Source: Fidelibacterota bacterium
GTDB lineage: Bacteria > Fidelibacterota > UBA8477 > JABMPR01
Assembly (NCBI GenBank): GCA_018650795.1
Contig: JABIFG010000003.1
Location: 22,232-86,231 of the forward strand
Direction of reading: 5' to 3'
Length of the DNA: 64,000 bases
The notes beneath the pieces were generated by a model. It was not told where the DNA came from, searched no databases, and saw only the letters and a list, made by a program, of their open reading frames with translations. Of the stretch, positions 21,480 through 29,286 are shown piece by piece. Both the position numbers and the translations under genes were made by a program. Position 1 is the first letter of the stretch. Each line of letters opens with the position of its first letter.

Positions 21480-23408
21480 CTACTTGAGGTAGACCAATTT
21501 AGAATCAGCACGTAGAACCCGCGGTGAGCCTGTCTCCTTGAATTCCACTTTCACCAAATAAATCCCAGCTTCAAGATATTTTCCGTCTACTTCTCTAGCA
21601 TTCCAGCTGTACTCAAGCAAACCCCTGACTTGATTGGGAATTTGTACTTCAAGCTTCCTCTTCCCATGTAAATCAAAGATGCTTAGATTAACATTCCCAC
21701 TGCCTGGAAGGAGGATCTTGATATTAGTTTCTGGATTAAATGGATTTGGAAAAGATTGTACCAGCAGGTGAGACTCAGGATTTTGGGTGTCAACTCTGTT
21801 TGTAGAATGTGTCTGTTGAATAGAAGCAATGGGGATGGGTGACAAATCCATTTGCTCGTAATATGATTGGAATTCATCAACTTCTGGCAAATCGTATTCA
21901 AATAAATCCTGGGCAAAACGTGGAGCGATGGTCTGGTAGTTCATAATTGCAGTTACTTCGTAGGTAGCATCCGGATTCAGCCCACCTACACGATAATGCA
22001 CTCTATCGACCCCAGTACCCTCTTCAAGGCCATTCCTATTGAAATCGGGGTCTATGGTCGCTAAACCTATAATGGCGGTAGAATCTACTGCTACACCATC
22101 AGAGAGATAACCCGAGGGCGGAATCCTGTTATCCTTCAAATATCCAGCGATTCTGAGCAGTGTATAGGTTTTTTCTCCGTTCACATCAGCCGGCATATTT
22201 TGGTAAACCTGTACCTGATCCGCATGGTTAATATTCTGGTGGTGAGGTTCATAGCCTGGTTCTAAACCGATAATTTCACCTTCTGCATTCCAGGCACCAG
22301 AGTGGAAAATATTTTCCCCAGAATGATTCTCAATTTTTAGTTCTATCCAGGCTCTTCTGCTGGGATAAGCCGTGGGAAATTTATGACCAGAAAGGTTTAG
22401 AATAGCTACTTCAATATCTAATGAATCTCCGGTATTATTCCAATCTAGCGCCAGATCGAGTTCCACGGTTTGATTTTGTAATAGTCTCATTGTTCTGGCA
22501 ATGCTTGAATCAAACTGAGCCTCGGTAGCACTAACATTTAACTCAGCACCAAAATTCCTCAACATGGTTAACATAAAAACATTTCCACCCACAAATTCAT
22601 GGGTATGCAGCGGGTTACGAGCCCCTAGCCATTGTGGACGGTTTGATAAAATGATGTTCTCATTGATGGCTGGCATGTGACAAGTCTGGCATTCTATACC
22701 TGCCTCAGGATAATCGCTATTGAGCCATTCAAGATAGGGCACCTGTTCGGGTGCTTCACCAGCGACTTCGCCAGCATCATTTACATAGGGTGTGAATAAC
22801 GTGTGGCAAGTAGCACATAGCTCCGAACTAGAGATATGCGGGCTCATCACAGGGGTGTAATTGGACATGTTCATCATCGGACCAGTTACTGGATTGCTGA
22901 ATGGACCATAAATGAGTCGATCATTCTCGATAGTGAAATGACCTGAGAAGCTCTCAGCCTGACCCAGATTCTGATCTTTGATTTGATGACAAACTGCACA
23001 ACTTACTCCATCCATAGCCAGGGGATCTGACAACATTTCCGAAATCGAGTAATCCGATTGTCCATCATATTCAGCTTGAGTATTTCCCATAGTGGCGTGA
23101 CAGCTTGTGCATTTATCCTCTATGACTGATTGCAGGTGAGGATGGGCGGATATTTCCGCCTGTACTTTGGCTTGCCATAACGGATCTTTAGCTGCATTTG
23201 CCATCATTGTGGAGCGCCAAAAAGTTGTTTGGGACACATCATTCCCCTGATTGTCACTTAGTGCTCCAGTATTGGGCGCGCCCTGAGTGTGGCAGGCAGC
23301 ACAAGTACCAGAGCCAGAAAATAGCGTGTTCGTCTCCAGCGGAAGTGATTGGGGGATCACAACAGAAACAAAGATTGACAGTGTGATGATTCTCTTGAAT
23401 AAGTTCAT
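21480..23408 (-). CDS. secreted multiheme c-type cytochrome with T9SS type A C-terminal domain
   Basis: Five CxxCH motifs (CAACH, CTSCH, CAVCH, CATCH, CQTCH); C-terminus 'QSFPNPFNPETNIKI...GIYLVKVEF'. Confidence 0.88.
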   Translation of the reverse strand: MNLFKRIITLSIFVSVVIPQSLPLETNTLFSGSGTCAACHTQGAPNTGALSDNQGNDVSQTTFWRSTMMANAAKDPLWQAKVQAEISAHPHLQSVIEDKCTSCHATMGNTQAEYDGQSDYSISEMLSDPLAMDGVSCAVCHQIKDQNLGQAESFSGHFTIENDRLIYGPFSNPVTGPMMNMSNYTPVMSPHISSSELCATCHTLFTPYVNDAGEVAGEAPEQVPYLEWLNSDYPEAGIECQTCHMPAINENIILSNRPQWLGARNPLHTHEFVGGNVFMLTMLRNFGAELNVSATEAQFDSSIARTMRLLQNQTVELDLALDWNNTGDSLDIEVAILNLSGHKFPTAYPSRRAWIELKIENHSGENIFHSGAWNAEGEIIGLEPGYEPHHQNINHADQVQVYQNMPADVNGEKTYTLLRIAGYLKDNRIPPSGYLSDGVAVDSTAIIGLATIDPDFNRNGLEEGTGVDRVHYRVGGLNPDATYEVTAIMNYQTIAPRFAQDLFEYDLPEVDEFQSYYEQMDLSPIPIASIQQTHSTNRVDTQNPESHLLVQSFPNPFNPETNIKILLPGSGNVNLSIFDLHGKRKLEVQIPNQVRGLLEYSWNAREVDGKYLEAGIYLVKVEFKETGSPRVLRADSKLVYLK

Positions 23409-23544: not shown

Positions 23545-24012
23545 TTATCTACCGGGCCTGCCTGAACGGCTACCACGACGGCCACCCATATTGTCATCAC
23601 CACGAGATCCTCTGGGACCTCTGCGTCCTTCACGAGGTCCAAATTCATGCTGATCATAGATAAGTTGCTGATCTGGCGTGAGCAAAGATCTGATCTGATC
23701 TCGATGAGCACCCATTAAGGCATCCATGGCTGTTCCATTAGCTTCAATGGCAGCCTCTAGCTCTGCAATCCGGCCTGCATCGGGATTTTCACTGTTATTG
23801 AGCAGTCTGAGCTCTTGTTCCAGTGAACGAGTAGTTTGCCGAATTTCCTGCATGGCAGGTTGCATACTTTCACGTAGAGTTGTGATTTGTTGCATTTGTT
23901 CTGTGGTTAAATTCAAGCTTTCATCCCAGGTCATCATTCGATCCCCGCGTCTCCCCTGACCTATCAACATGGCAACGGTAAGCATGAACAATAAAATTCT
24001 TTTGTAGTTCAT
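23545..24012 (-). CDS. Spy/CpxP/ZraP-like periplasmic protein with Arg/Gly-rich tail
   Basis: Signal peptide; two LTxxQ motifs (LTTEQMQQI, LTPDQQLIYDQ) flanking helices; tail GPREGRRGPRGSRGDDNMGGRRGSRSGRPGR. Confidence 0.7.
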   Translation of the reverse strand: MNYKRILLFMLTVAMLIGQGRRGDRMMTWDESLNLTTEQMQQITTLRESMQPAMQEIRQTTRSLEQELRLLNNSENPDAGRIAELEAAIEANGTAMDALMGAHRDQIRSLLTPDQQLIYDQHEFGPREGRRGPRGSRGDDNMGGRRGSRSGRPGR

Positions 24013-24024
24013 ATCTGCTCCTTT

Positions 24025-25179
24025 TTAATTATTTAAATTGATACTTATACTATAGCTCATGCTCTCATAATCATAGAGCATGTCATTCGATTTGTTCTGG
24101 GTCAAACCAGTTGTTAGCACTAATTCAACCTCAGACATCCAATCAAGGTTATTGATTGCCCAGTACTTATTCCAGCGAAACTGAAAATGGTTACGCTCAT
24201 CCTGACGATCATAACCCAGATGCACCAATTCCTCATCTTCAATTACATAATCCATGGCATCAAAATCGAATTGATAAACAGGCACATCGATATAGCTTTT
24301 TTTCAAATATGAATGTGATACCTGAAAACTGCTCTGGGGACTATGACGATACATTAAACGCATCGCGCTTGAAGAACCTTCCCAGCGAAACCGATCCGTG
24401 AATGGGTTTTCTATTCCATCCTGCAGGACCAGAGAATCAGCATCATCATTCAAAAGGGTTTGATTTTCCAGCCACAAAGTGAACCCAAATTTACTGCCCA
24501 GTGATTGACTTAATCGTAATTCTGTTGTAGTCAGGTAATTGCTGGGAATATCGTTCACAGTTGTAAAAAGATTGCGACCTTGTCCAGAGATGCTGGTTTG
24601 TGGTAAGAAATCCTGTAGGGAGATGGACGATCGTAATTGAAGCGAGCTCTTTGTCTGGAATGACTGATTATACGCTGCGAAAACTTCATGAACAGAATTT
24701 GAAGCTTCTTCAACTTCCGCAAATCTTTTCGATTCGAAATCATACCCAAAGGTGGTGAGGTGGCCTGCCTGGAAGTAGTGTTTCCATTTCCCATAAAAAC
24801 CGAGGCCAGAATTATTGTAATAGCTATAGCTATCCTGATAACGGTTTGCAAATCCGTGAAAGCCATAGAAAAGCTGATTATCATCAATTTCTAAATACCG
24901 AAATTGTAGGCCAAGCTCAATCTGGCTCGATGAATATTCAGCTTGTGGGTAAATCTGTGTATGTGAGAGATCTAAATATCCTCTGGCATTGTCGGAAATG
25001 ATCGAGCTAAGCCCCAGAGTTGAACTTCCATAAGATGCATTTTCGACCAATTTGCTTCCTAACAGATAGTCTGCCATACCAGTTGTGGTATTTAGTTCAA
25101 CAAACAAATCCTCAGCCAGTCCAATATTCAAACTAATAGACAATAGACCCAAGAGTTTTATAATTTTATTAAGAATCAT
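24025..25179 (-). CDS. predicted outer membrane beta-barrel-like protein, unknown function
   Basis: Signal peptide and repeated amphipathic strands; overlaps start/stop with the upstream ORF. Confidence 0.55.
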   Translation of the reverse strand: MILNKIIKLLGLLSISLNIGLAEDLFVELNTTTGMADYLLGSKLVENASYGSSTLGLSSIISDNARGYLDLSHTQIYPQAEYSSSQIELGLQFRYLEIDDNQLFYGFHGFANRYQDSYSYYNNSGLGFYGKWKHYFQAGHLTTFGYDFESKRFAEVEEASNSVHEVFAAYNQSFQTKSSLQLRSSISLQDFLPQTSISGQGRNLFTTVNDIPSNYLTTTELRLSQSLGSKFGFTLWLENQTLLNDDADSLVLQDGIENPFTDRFRWEGSSSAMRLMYRHSPQSSFQVSHSYLKKSYIDVPVYQFDFDAMDYVIEDEELVHLGYDRQDERNHFQFRWNKYWAINNLDWMSEVELVLTTGLTQNKSNDMLYDYESMSYSISINLNN

Positions 25180-25397: not shown

Positions 25398-25426
25398 ACC
25401 TGGGGAGGAATATTTCCTCCCCAGGT
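25398..25426 (-). other. intercistronic perfect stem-loop
   Basis: ACCTGGGGAGGAA-TAT-TTCCTCCCCAGGT (13 bp perfect arms) between the Gly-rich gene and the 67-aa gene. Confidence 0.75.
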
Positions 25427-25437
25427 GAATCTAATAT

Positions 25438-25848
25438 TTAGCGTGTAACTCTTGAACTGAAACGTGTCTTGGGCATTACTGGATCTACGATACAGTCACC
25501 ATCGCCAGGACCTACGCCGGTTCCATTACCAGGGCCATTGCCACCGGAGGATCCGCGTCCATTACCAGTTCCGTCAGCAGGACCATTTCCGCTTCCGTTA
25601 CCTTCGCCACCGCCATATCCAGCACCACTACCATCTTGTGGCTGAACATAGTCTTCATCCATTGAATTTGGGATGCCATCTCCATCAGCATCAGGAGCTA
25701 AATCGTTAAATCCATCTCCATTCTCATCAATGAATTCGCCAGGACCATTGCCCCACTGGCCACCGGCCTGTGCGTATACTGGATTTGCAGTTGAGATCAG
25801 GCTAATTGCCGCCAACATCACCATTGCTGTTAAAATTTGCTTTTTCAT
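25438..25848 (-). CDS. secreted Gly-rich protein with Ca-binding-type Asp repeats
   Basis: Signal peptide; 'FIDENGDGFNDLAPDADGDGIPNSMDEDY'; Gly/Asn/Ser-rich region; AGGAGAG ribosome-binding site. Confidence 0.75.
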   Translation of the reverse strand: MKKQILTAMVMLAAISLISTANPVYAQAGGQWGNGPGEFIDENGDGFNDLAPDADGDGIPNSMDEDYVQPQDGSGAGYGGGEGNGSGNGPADGTGNGRGSSGGNGPGNGTGVGPGDGDCIVDPVMPKTRFSSRVTR

Positions 25849-25911
25849 CTTTTCTCTCCTTTTACTTGTTCTCTATTTGTCTTGTTATTTCAATAAATCT
25901 GCTTCTTATAG

Positions 25912-25927
25912 TCCAACCTCTGTGCCA
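25912..25927 (-). promoter_or_regulatory. sigma-54-like -24/-12 promoter for the Gly-rich gene operon
   Basis: Minus strand TGGCACAGAGGTTGGA vs TGGCACGN4TTGCA; spacing correct, -12 has GG instead of GC; 64 bp upstream of ATG. Confidence 0.55.
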
Positions 25928-26015
25928 ATGAAGCTGGCATGGCATAATTCCTTGCCTTACATATTGTTATATATGGATTTATAGATTTTACTTAGATAGG
26001 ATTATACGAATACTA

Positions 26016-26054
26016 TCTCGACATATCACGTCGATTTCGACGTATTTGTCGAGA
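26016..26054. promoter_or_regulatory. large inverted repeat, candidate enhancer (UAS) for an NtrC-family activator
   Basis: TCTCGACA-TATC-ACGTCGA-TT-TCGACGT-ATT-TGTCGAGA; both 8 bp outer and 7 bp inner arms are perfect; ~130 bp upstream of the predicted start site. Confidence 0.55.
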
Positions 26055-26245
26055 ATTAACCTGTTGATTTACGCATCAAGGTGCTTGAATTGTCCCGGAT
26101 GGAGTTGAAGGGTTCAGCTATTTTGTGGTGAGCTCAGTTGGGATTCGAATCCCAACCTGGATAATTTCCTCATTTTCCATAATCGTCCTATCTCTCAACT
26201 GCGCTCGAGATGACAAAGGGTGATGCTATTGGGGAAGATGAATTA

Positions 26246-27577
26246 TTATTTTAGGTGGTATTTCTGAAGCTTGTAGCGGAGTACGCGTTCACTGATACCC
26301 AGACGTCTGGCACATTCGCTCTGATTTCCACCTGCTGCTTCAAGCGTGGTTTTTATCAGATCAACTTCGAGACCGCCCACAGAATCTTTTAATTTTCCCG
26401 AAACAGCCTTTTCGCCAGGTTTACTTTGCAGATTAAGTCCCTGAGCTTGAATCTCGACTTCCTGACAAAGCAGAACAGCTCGCTCGAGTAGGTTACCTAA
26501 TTCACGGACATTACCTGGGAAGTGATATGCTTCAAGAGCCACGAGAGCTTTGTTGGAGAGGGACAATTCAGCTCTACCCTCTCGGTTGGAAAATTTTTCG
26601 AGAAAATATTTTGATAATACCGCTATATCATCAGGCCTGCTTCTTAGAGGTGGAATCTCCAGATTGATCACATTTAATCGATAGTAGAGATCTTCCCGAA
26701 ATTCTCCGATCTCAATGGCATGCAGTAAATTTACGTTGGTAGCCGCGATCACTCTCACATCTGACTTGAGGACTTTATTCTCCCCAATCCTTTGAAACTC
26801 TCCGCTCTGTAGAAATCTCAACAGCTTGGTCTGCATCTCCAGCGGTAGATCACCGATCTCGTCTAGAAAAAGGGTTCCTTCGTGGGCTTCCTCAAAGCGA
26901 CCAGTCCTTGTAGCGGTGGCACCGGTAAAGGCACCTTTCTCATGGCCAAATAGCTCACTCTCGATAAGATGACTTGGTAAGGCTGCACAATTCACAGCCA
27001 CCATGGGGTGTTCACTCCGGGGTGAATGCTGATGTATGTAATCTGCCAGGACTTCTTTACCCACACCAGTTTCACCGGTGATCAGCACCGTTACCTGGCT
27101 ACCAGCTACACGCTTTGCCTGTTGTAGCAACCCTAACATCACTGGATCTTTTGCAAGGAAACCAATCTCCTCTGAATCCTGGTCTATAGAGCTGTTATTC
27201 AGCTTCTGTGTGGTCTGGATATGATCCACAATACCCTTGAGCAGCGTTTCCAACTGGTCAAGATCGACGGGTTTGGTCAAGAAATCCCAGGCTCCAGATT
27301 TCATGGCATCAACGGCAATATCCACCGTCCCGAAAGCGGTAATTAAAACAAGAATTACATTGGGGTGGCGTGATTTTACTTCCTTTAAAAGATCAGCACC
27401 AGTCATATAAGGCATCTTGTAATCTGATAAGACTATATCAACGGGATGCTTATGCATATGTGCGAGGGCAGTCTGAGCAGAATCAGCAGTGCTTACCTCG
27501 TATCCAATCTTCTTGAGAAAGCCTGCTAGAGAATCCCGTTGGAGCTTTTCATCATCAACAATTAGTAGTCTGGTCAT
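26246..27577 (-). CDS. NtrC-family sigma-54-dependent response regulator
   Basis: REC domain, AAA+ with [15 protein letters not shown], Fis-type HTH '[23 protein letters not shown]'. Confidence 0.95.
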
Positions 27578-29286
27578 TGTTTCACCGCTATTTCTATTTC
27601 AAATATGCTTCCTTCACCAGGTTGACTGGACACTTCAATTGTGCCCTGGTGATCCGCAATAATTTTATGTGTCAGCGCCAACCCCACTCCAGTGCCCATA
27701 TCCTTAGTTGTATAATACAAATCAAATACACGACTGAGTTGATCCTCAGGAATACCTGCTCCGGTATCCTTGACCTTAATTTTAATCAACTTTCCGTATT
27801 TCTTTCCTTCTAAATCAACTGCGTCTCCTGCTTCACAAGCATCCAGGGCGTTTCTCACCAAATTTGATATGGCTTGCCTCAGATATTCTCCATCAGCTTC
27901 AAATTCCAGGGTTTTGGCATCGATAGTCAGAGATATCTTTTTCTCCAATGCTTCTGATTTATATAAATCCTGAATGCTACCCAAAAAACTTTTCATATCG
28001 AGGCTGGAAAATTTCAGGGGTGTAGGTCTGGTATATTCTAGAAAATCCTGGAGGGAAGTGTTAATTCTAGAAATCTCAGAGACCATGGTGCCCGTTAGCG
28101 ATTCATATTCCTGTTGATCTTCACCAGTCGAGAATTCACGTTTCAGTCTCTGGGCTACAATACCAATGGCATTGAGTGGGTTGCGAATTTCGTGAGCAAC
28201 GCCTGCAGCAAGTTCACCGACCGCTGCCTGTTTTTCTCTGAGACGATTCAATTTCTCCAAACGATAGACTTCTGCTTCAATGCGTATCTTTTCTTCCTCA
28301 AGCAAGGCTGCATTCTGTCGGACAAGTAGAAATATGAGTAATACAAAGGCAAGCAAGGTAAGGAGTGTGGTGCGAATGAGGATTTGATAAAGGATTTGAC
28401 CTTTTAGGCTAAGTAGGGTATCAGCTTTAAATCCAATACGGACTTCACCCAGGCTTGAGCTAAAAAATACGGGCCGAACCACTTCCAGCAGACTGCTATC
28501 CCCTTTGGAAACCTTAAAGAGAATATCAGCTAGGGGCTCACGATTCCAGGAATCATCAACCACTTCACCAGATTTTGATACATAATATGGGTCATGGTCA
28601 TCCAGAGCCAGCTTCAGATACTGCAATCCTTTGACATACAAGAGGTCTTCCAGAGCGGACTCCATGGCGGTGAGATATTTGAAATCTTGCTCTGCATCCA
28701 GAGACAATCGGCAAACAAGAGCACCACCACGATCTCTGGGGATGGCTACCATAAATTGATCATCAAGATTGTCATCCTGAGCAAGGGTGTAATTACTTTG
28801 GTCAACTCCCAAAATGATCAGGTCTGTTTTTCTTGATAAAATTGGTTGAAGTTGATTCTTGATCAAAGTCTTGTCTTGATCCACTTCACTCTGGATGTGC
28901 TTTCCTGCAGTCTTGCGGGTGCCATCCATATCCCCAGCACTATCATAGGTAGTGATATCCATGATGGTTTCATCATTCACCCATTTATCCAGATCACTGC
29001 GAGATAGTTTCTGTTGTGCATCTATTTGATTCAAGATACTGAGCATATCAATGGCTCTATCGATATAGGATTGTTTCAACTCTTCTGTGAGATAGGCCTG
29101 ACCACTGCCACTCTGCGCAATCACAGCGGCGGTCATGGCAGCCTGGTCCTGGATGAGCTGCAGAACGTCACGATATCTGGATTTGTATTCGAGGTAGCTC
29201 GATAAAATCAGAAGGGCCAGAACAACAAGATACAGACCGACATACCATGGGTTCAGTTTTAAGATATTTTTAACAGCTCTCAGCAA
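27574..29286 (-). CDS. membrane sensor histidine kinase
   Basis: Two TMs around a ~260 aa extracytoplasmic domain; 'GVAHEIRNPLNAIG' H-box; HATPase; overlaps regulator (ATGA). Confidence 0.93.
   Translation of the reverse strand: MLRAVKNILKLNPWYVGLYLVVLALLILSSYLEYKSRYRDVLQLIQDQAAMTAAVIAQSGSGQAYLTEELKQSYIDRAIDMLSILNQIDAQQKLSRSDLDKWVNDETIMDITTYDSAGDMDGTRKTAGKHIQSEVDQDKTLIKNQLQPILSRKTDLIILGVDQSNYTLAQDDNLDDQFMVAIPRDRGGALVCRLSLDAEQDFKYLTAMESALEDLLYVKGLQYLKLALDDHDPYYVSKSGEVVDDSWNREPLADILFKVSKGDSSLLEVVRPVFFSSSLGEVRIGFKADTLLSLKGQILYQILIRTTLLTLLAFVLLIFLLVRQNAALLEEEKIRIEAEVYRLEKLNRLREKQAAVGELAAGVAHEIRNPLNAIGIVAQRLKREFSTGEDQQEYESLTGTMVSEISRINTSLQDFLEYTRPTPLKFSSLDMKSFLGSIQDLYKSEALEKKISLTIDAKTLEFEADGEYLRQAISNLVRNALDACEAGDAVDLEGKKYGKLIKIKVKDTGAGIPEDQLSRVFDLYYTTKDMGTGVGLALTHKIIADHQGTIEVSSQPGEGSIFEIEIAVKQ

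Follow-up and report, generated by a model that had tools for sequence, protein, structure and literature searches.

A sigma-54-type promoter and tandem upstream dyads predicted to tie an NtrC-family regulator to an envelope operon in a Candidatus Neomarinimicrobiota genome

The locus described here raises a simple question: does a response regulator gene that lies directly before an operon of exported proteins control that operon and, if so, through which DNA sites? The window (the whole 64,000-nucleotide stretch analysed, G000:C126:22232-86231) is part of a 4.4-Mb assembly in 355 contigs. Its source is an uncultured, marine Candidatus Neomarinimicrobiota MAG, and the close relatives identified by protein search are MAGs of the same phylum. 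ATP synthase genes lie upstream of the locus, which is entirely on the minus strand. The gene order is kinase, regulator, intergenic region and then genes for a TSP3-like protein, a beta-barrel, an LTXXQ/Spy-like protein and a multihaem cytochrome. The 3' end of the kinase gene shares 4 bases with the start of the regulator gene. The genes are as follows.

27574-29286, minus strand: sensor histidine kinase, 570 aa (Pfam HisKA/HATPase_c)
26246-27577, minus strand: NtrC-family response regulator, 443 aa, presumed enhancer-binding protein (Pfam Response_reg, Sigma54_activat, HTH_8)
25438-25848, minus strand: operon gene 1, small exported protein rich in Asp, Gly and Asn (ORF; homologues at the equivalent position in relatives)
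24025-25179, minus strand: operon gene 2, 384-aa protein, probably an outer-membrane beta-barrel (ORF; homologues in relatives)
23545-24012, minus strand: operon gene 3, LTXXQ/Spy/ZraP-like periplasmic protein, 155 aa (Pfam LTXXQ 9.4e-10, Metal_resist 7.9e-06)
21480-23408, minus strand: probable operon gene 4, encoding a 642-aa multihaem cytochrome c that bears a T9SS sorting tail (presumably co-transcribed)

The product of operon gene 1 resembles thrombospondin type 3 repeats by eye; neither this protein nor the predicted beta-barrel matches a family in Pfam or NCBIfam. That of gene 3 matches NCBIfam Spy weakly, below the cut-off. The cytochrome gene occupies the same place in several relatives, while others gave no tblastn match. 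Between operon genes 1 and 2 the minus-strand transcript includes a 13-bp perfect inverted repeat (25398-25426, ACCTGGGGAGGAA/TTCCTCCCCAGGT). A similar GGGAGGA...TCCTCCC stem occurs in the equivalent stretch of six related loci (L033, L036, L039, L040, L043 and L044), with no T-run. This is possibly an mRNA hairpin that would give the first gene a different expression level.

The regulator itself is of the expected type. It carries a receiver domain, an AAA+ domain with Walker A, the motif GETGVGKE and a GAFTGA loop, and a Fis-type HTH, which together place it among the NtrC-family (group I) enhancer-binding proteins and bear out an earlier identification made from the sequence (hereafter the preliminary description). 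Orthologues in three relatives have GSFTGA instead.

A candidate target for such a protein lies immediately before operon gene 1.

25912-25927, minus strand: predicted sigma-54 promoter, with -24 TGGCAC (25922-25927), N5 and -12 TTGGA (25912-25916)

The minus strand from 25927 to 25912 reads TGGCACAGAGGTTGGA, which would place the transcription start (+1) near 25901. Compared with the canonical sigma-54 promoter, TGGCAC-N5-TTGCW, the -24 element and the spacing are identical. The difference is at -12, where each of the 26 promoters that we have aligned (20 at the operon and six elsewhere) has TTGG or TTGA in place of the canonical TTGC. At the operon, in 20 genomes from two families, the form is TGGCA[CT]-N5-TTG; the base that comes next is G in 19 genomes, A in one (G019) and C in none. 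These 20 are orthologues and thus do not represent 20 independent events. Over the full set TGGCA (including the -24 GG in its TGGCAY context), the N5 spacing and TTG are invariant, with a G after TTG in 20 promoters and an A in six; the G of the -12 GC dinucleotide is therefore always kept and the C always replaced. The preliminary description had reported a good -24 match with correct spacing, and its letters and coordinates are right. It had also treated GG at -12 as a departure from GC. The letters are again correct, but the departure is not a defect: GG is what the relatives conserve at this promoter. Departures from TTGC are likewise found in some validated sigma-54 promoters of E. coli (PMC12316311). 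The genome encodes rpoN, and intergenic matches are more numerous at N5 than at adjacent spacings. By itself the motif is weak evidence (for TGGCACN5TTGV, 0.55 matches are expected per window and one is observed); the promoter is shown to be real by its recurrence at the same position in 20 genomes. We file it as a probable sigma-54-type promoter with a variant -12 element.

The putative enhancer lies between this promoter and the regulator gene.

26016-26054, no strand assigned: 39-bp 'nested palindrome' of the preliminary description, consisting of dyads A and B plus flanking bases
26037-26052, minus strand: predicted enhancer dyad A, promoter-distal, TCGACAAATACGTCGA, of the TCGACA-N4-TGTCGA type with one mismatch
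26018-26034, minus strand: predicted enhancer dyad B, promoter-proximal, 17 bp, TCGACGTGATATGTCGA, with an N5 spacer
25961-25970, minus strand: conserved ATAACARTA-like element in the stretch from enhancer to promoter (visible by eye in most operon promoters when their upstream regions are aligned)

The plus strand at 26016-26054 reads TCTCGACATATCACGTCGATTTCGACGTATTTGTCGAGA. This had been described as two nested perfect inverted repeats about 130 bp upstream. The distance holds (the centre is at about -134 relative to the presumed +1) and both repeats exist. Their centres, however, are at 26035.0 and 26035.5, half a base pair apart, so that they lack a common axis and are not strictly nested. 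We have consequently abandoned the 39-bp nested palindrome as the functional unit: it is not concentric, and the relatives keep the dyads and not the nesting. The unit is better read as a pair of tandem TCGACA-N4-TGTCGA dyads, whose letters are TCGACA-N5-CGTCGA at 26018-26034 and TCGACG-N4-TGTCGA at 26037-26052. Among Markov-simulated 64-kb windows the 8+7 nested repeat was found in none of 20 and the tandem dyad pair in none of 100. All 26 aligned sites share the dyad core, CGACA/GTCG. Changes in the arms are one-sided in six cases and compensatory in none, and this fits a protein site rather than an RNA stem. The ATAACARTA-like element is a possible DNA-bending site; by eye it matches the IHF consensus poorly.

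The remainder of the intergenic region contains other repeats. A perfect 20-bp palindrome (GTTGGGATTCGAATCCCAAC, 26137-26156) lies between the regulator gene and the enhancer, with similar palindromes in the equivalent gap of two related loci (L039 and L041). The pattern GGGATTC[GT]AATCCC has three strand-counted matches in 733 kb of G012, and a tRNA-like reading of the palindrome was considered by eye and dropped. At about 26190-26215, TCTCAACTGCGCTCGAGATGAC resembles a short dispersed repeat; related CTCGAGCGGAGTCGAGAGATA strings occur in the equivalent gap of L033 and L034.

To follow these elements in relatives, orthologous kinase-regulator-operon loci were gathered by protein search. Seventeen genomes, including that of the window, were reached by synteny and not by motif. 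The operon contigs of G004, G007 and G008 were reached only through the motif, and these three are therefore not independent evidence. In all 16 synteny-located relatives, which span two families, a dyad is present upstream of the operon (with one mismatch in G003). Wherever the region is present, the promoter precedes the small-protein gene with one or two dyads upstream, and the dyad keeps its distance from the promoter but not from the regulator stop codon. In family f2 (G020, G021 and G022) promoter and dyads are kept, with two clear dyads 21 bp (two helical turns) apart, and operon and kinase gene are transcribed divergently (as seen in G020 and G022). In family f1 the second dyad is often degenerate; in the window it has a 5-bp spacer. 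Dyad B is partly degenerate in relatives, which retain mainly its promoter-side TGTCGA half-site. Conservation in relatives, which had been proposed as a check, is thus observed for the promoter and dyads across two families and not for the nesting. The enhancer arrangement is itself ordinary for bacteria; its conservation among relatives is unusually good.

Distances from the dyad start to TGGC are 103, 114, 124-127 and 135-138 bp, in steps of about 10.5 bp, as would be expected for looping. With seven distances or groups treated as independent, and dyads located by a motif scan confined to about 55-175 bp upstream, the mean resultant length is 0.88 at 10.5 bp (P ~0.001, or ~0.002 allowing periods of 10-11). 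The dyads thus occupy a preferred helical face upstream of the promoter, in the manner of NtrC-type upstream activating sequences. In addition, the recognition helix of the regulator, NQSECAR[RQ]LG[IV]SERV, hardly varies among genomes that carry the dyad, and no dyad was found in the loci read for L051 and L052, two remoter homologues whose helix differs. From this co-conservation we infer that the dyads are binding sites of the neighbouring regulator.

The preliminary description had suggested a genome scan with the 39-bp palindrome to define the regulon. The 39-mer proved to be unique in the 4.4-Mb assembly (allowing up to three mismatches), and a small candidate regulon was instead outlined with the dyad. 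The perfect dyad occurs zero to two times per genome, mostly at the kinase-regulator-operon locus. Elsewhere, a dyad and a sigma-54-like promoter precede a second LTXXQ-DUF2202 operon (G000 C221), an LTXXQ gene (G019 C43) and a porin-like gene (G000 C216 and G001 C212). Porin orthologues located by protein search in G014 and G016 have both elements, and porin homologues at 36-51% identity (G015, G011, G021 and G018) have no dyad within one mismatch beside a promoter. These additional sites define a small predicted regulon of functionally related genes. An uncultured marine phylum thereby gains a concrete and testable regulon: one regulator, one 16-bp site and three or four envelope operons. 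Among open-licence papers we found none on regulation that concerned Marinimicrobia and sigma54. In G000 C216 (L060/L105) the dyad has the porin gene on one side and, on the opposite one, a TetR-family gene and a gene resembling, by eye, a UbiA-type prenyltransferase, an order repeated in G001 (L068).

Could the dyads serve some other protein? They might be an operator for a repressor or a one-component regulator, for example, with the NtrC-type regulator acting elsewhere or as a different input. The specificity of a FIS-type HTH is unreadable from sequence, and a TetR-family gene lies beside the porin member of the regulon. However, the dyad travels with the regulator and its near-invariant recognition helix even under a different gene order, the other dyads precede sigma-54-like promoters, which require an enhancer-binding protein, and no TetR-like gene was seen by eye among the ORFs beside the main locus. 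We consider this explanation improbable.

Less probable still is that the palindrome is an RNA element, such as a terminator or mRNA hairpin of the regulator gene, with the promoter string fortuitous or of the sigma-70 type. Inverted repeats downstream of a stop codon can be terminators, this one is about 190 bp past the regulator stop, and an ACTATA next to the -12 element slightly resembles a -10 box. Against this, no T-run follows the palindrome, its distance from the regulator stop varies among relatives (about 25-200 bp) but that from the promoter does not, it is retained in L046 and L047, where operon and regulator are transcribed divergently, and the dyad arms do not covary. We have therefore rejected the terminator or hairpin. 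Chance matching could account for the promoter string by itself, given its expected frequency, but the simulations of the tandem dyads and the conservation in 20 genomes leave it with almost no likelihood. Very probably, therefore, the operon is transcribed from a sigma-54 promoter that the neighbouring NtrC-family regulator activates through a pair of upstream enhancer sites. The tie between regulator and operon that the preliminary description had proposed is supported by the co-conservation of promoter, dyads and recognition helix, by the presence of RpoN and by the helical spacing.

The variant -12 element suggests a further question, concerning sigma-54 itself. The rpoN gene (L002:619-1980; further RpoN loci are L127-L156 and L177-L196) encodes the recognition helix MDISTISR, with Ile at the Glu378 position. 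Glu378 is conserved in E. coli and Klebsiella sigma-54. E378 and R383 of sigma-54 crosslink promoter DNA (PMC5505868). The Ile is nearly phylum-wide in Neomarinimicrobiota, with His in family f3, so that no correlation with promoters is possible within the genus. Some genomes have a second RpoN-like match, much weaker in several. Intergenic TGGCAY-N5-TTG matches in G012 form a small set of seven (next base A in four, C in two and T in one), and whole-genome counts over ten genomes are 120 for TTGC, 385 for TTGA and 324 for TTGG. Spacing controls in 733 kb of G012 gave no clear enrichment of TTGR over background. They indicate that the counts are dominated by background, which reduces a lineage-wide TTGR preference to a possibility; as an established claim we have discarded it, the apparent enrichment being chance background. 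That the sigma-54 of this phylum reads TTGG or TTGA rather than TTGC through the exchange of Glu378 for Ile is a speculative idea and rather unlikely. The conserved TTGR and the altered helix provide a side lead on promoter reading by sigma-54.

The following sequence of events is proposed. On sensing a signal from the envelope or a metal, the kinase (27574-29286) would pass phosphate to the regulator (26246-27577), which would occupy the tandem TCGACA-N4-TGTCGA dyads (26018-26052) as adjacent dimers and oligomerise. The DNA between dyads and promoter (about 90 bp) would be looped, and the GAFTGA loop together with ATP hydrolysis would open the closed RNAP-sigma-54 complex at 25912-25927. Operon genes 1 to 3, and probably the cytochrome gene, would then be transcribed. 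A few other promoters, those of the second LTXXQ-DUF2202 operon and the porin, would be under the same regulator.

As an NtrC-family two-component system whose predicted regulon is local and concerns the envelope, the locus is of a known kind. In E. coli, zraP is divergent from zraSR, and in family f2 the target operon is likewise divergent from the kinase-regulator pair. The E. coli ZraSR/ZraP system (zinc/envelope stress) shares with the present locus an NtrC-family response regulator and its kinase, a sigma-54 promoter with upstream sites, a periplasmic target of the LTXXQ/metal-resistance type and a small number of targets (zraP, zraSR and mgtA are reported for ZraR; PMC7657598). Here a Spy/LTXXQ protein is encoded both in the operon and among the second targets, with sigma-54 control read from the DNA alone. 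The regulator scores 386.8 bits against NCBIfam ZraR (cut-off 760) and the kinase 187.7 bits against ZraS, its nearest model (cut-off 479). As both are far below the cut-offs, we do not file the locus as ZraSR/ZraP. The operon also differs in its first two genes (TSP3-like protein and beta-barrel) and, in several genomes, in the additional gene for a multihaem cytochrome.

The upstream dyads resemble NtrC-type enhancers (for example, that of glnA), which lie about 100-150 bp from a -24/-12 promoter; this range and NtrC-type activation are reviewed in PMC7057263. The arrangement presumably works in the same way, with tandem dimers, looping and ATP-driven opening. A regulator gene adjacent to its target is also found in the sigma-54 regulons of Desulfovibrio vulgaris (PMC4641369) and Clostridiales (PMC6615313). 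The dyad, TCGACA-N4-TGTCGA, is unlike those of these systems, and neither TGTCG nor CGACA occurs in the main text of the Desulfovibrio papers compared. In its envelope proteins, and possibly in a role in envelope stress, the operon resembles in parts the E. coli ZraSR/ZraP stress system.
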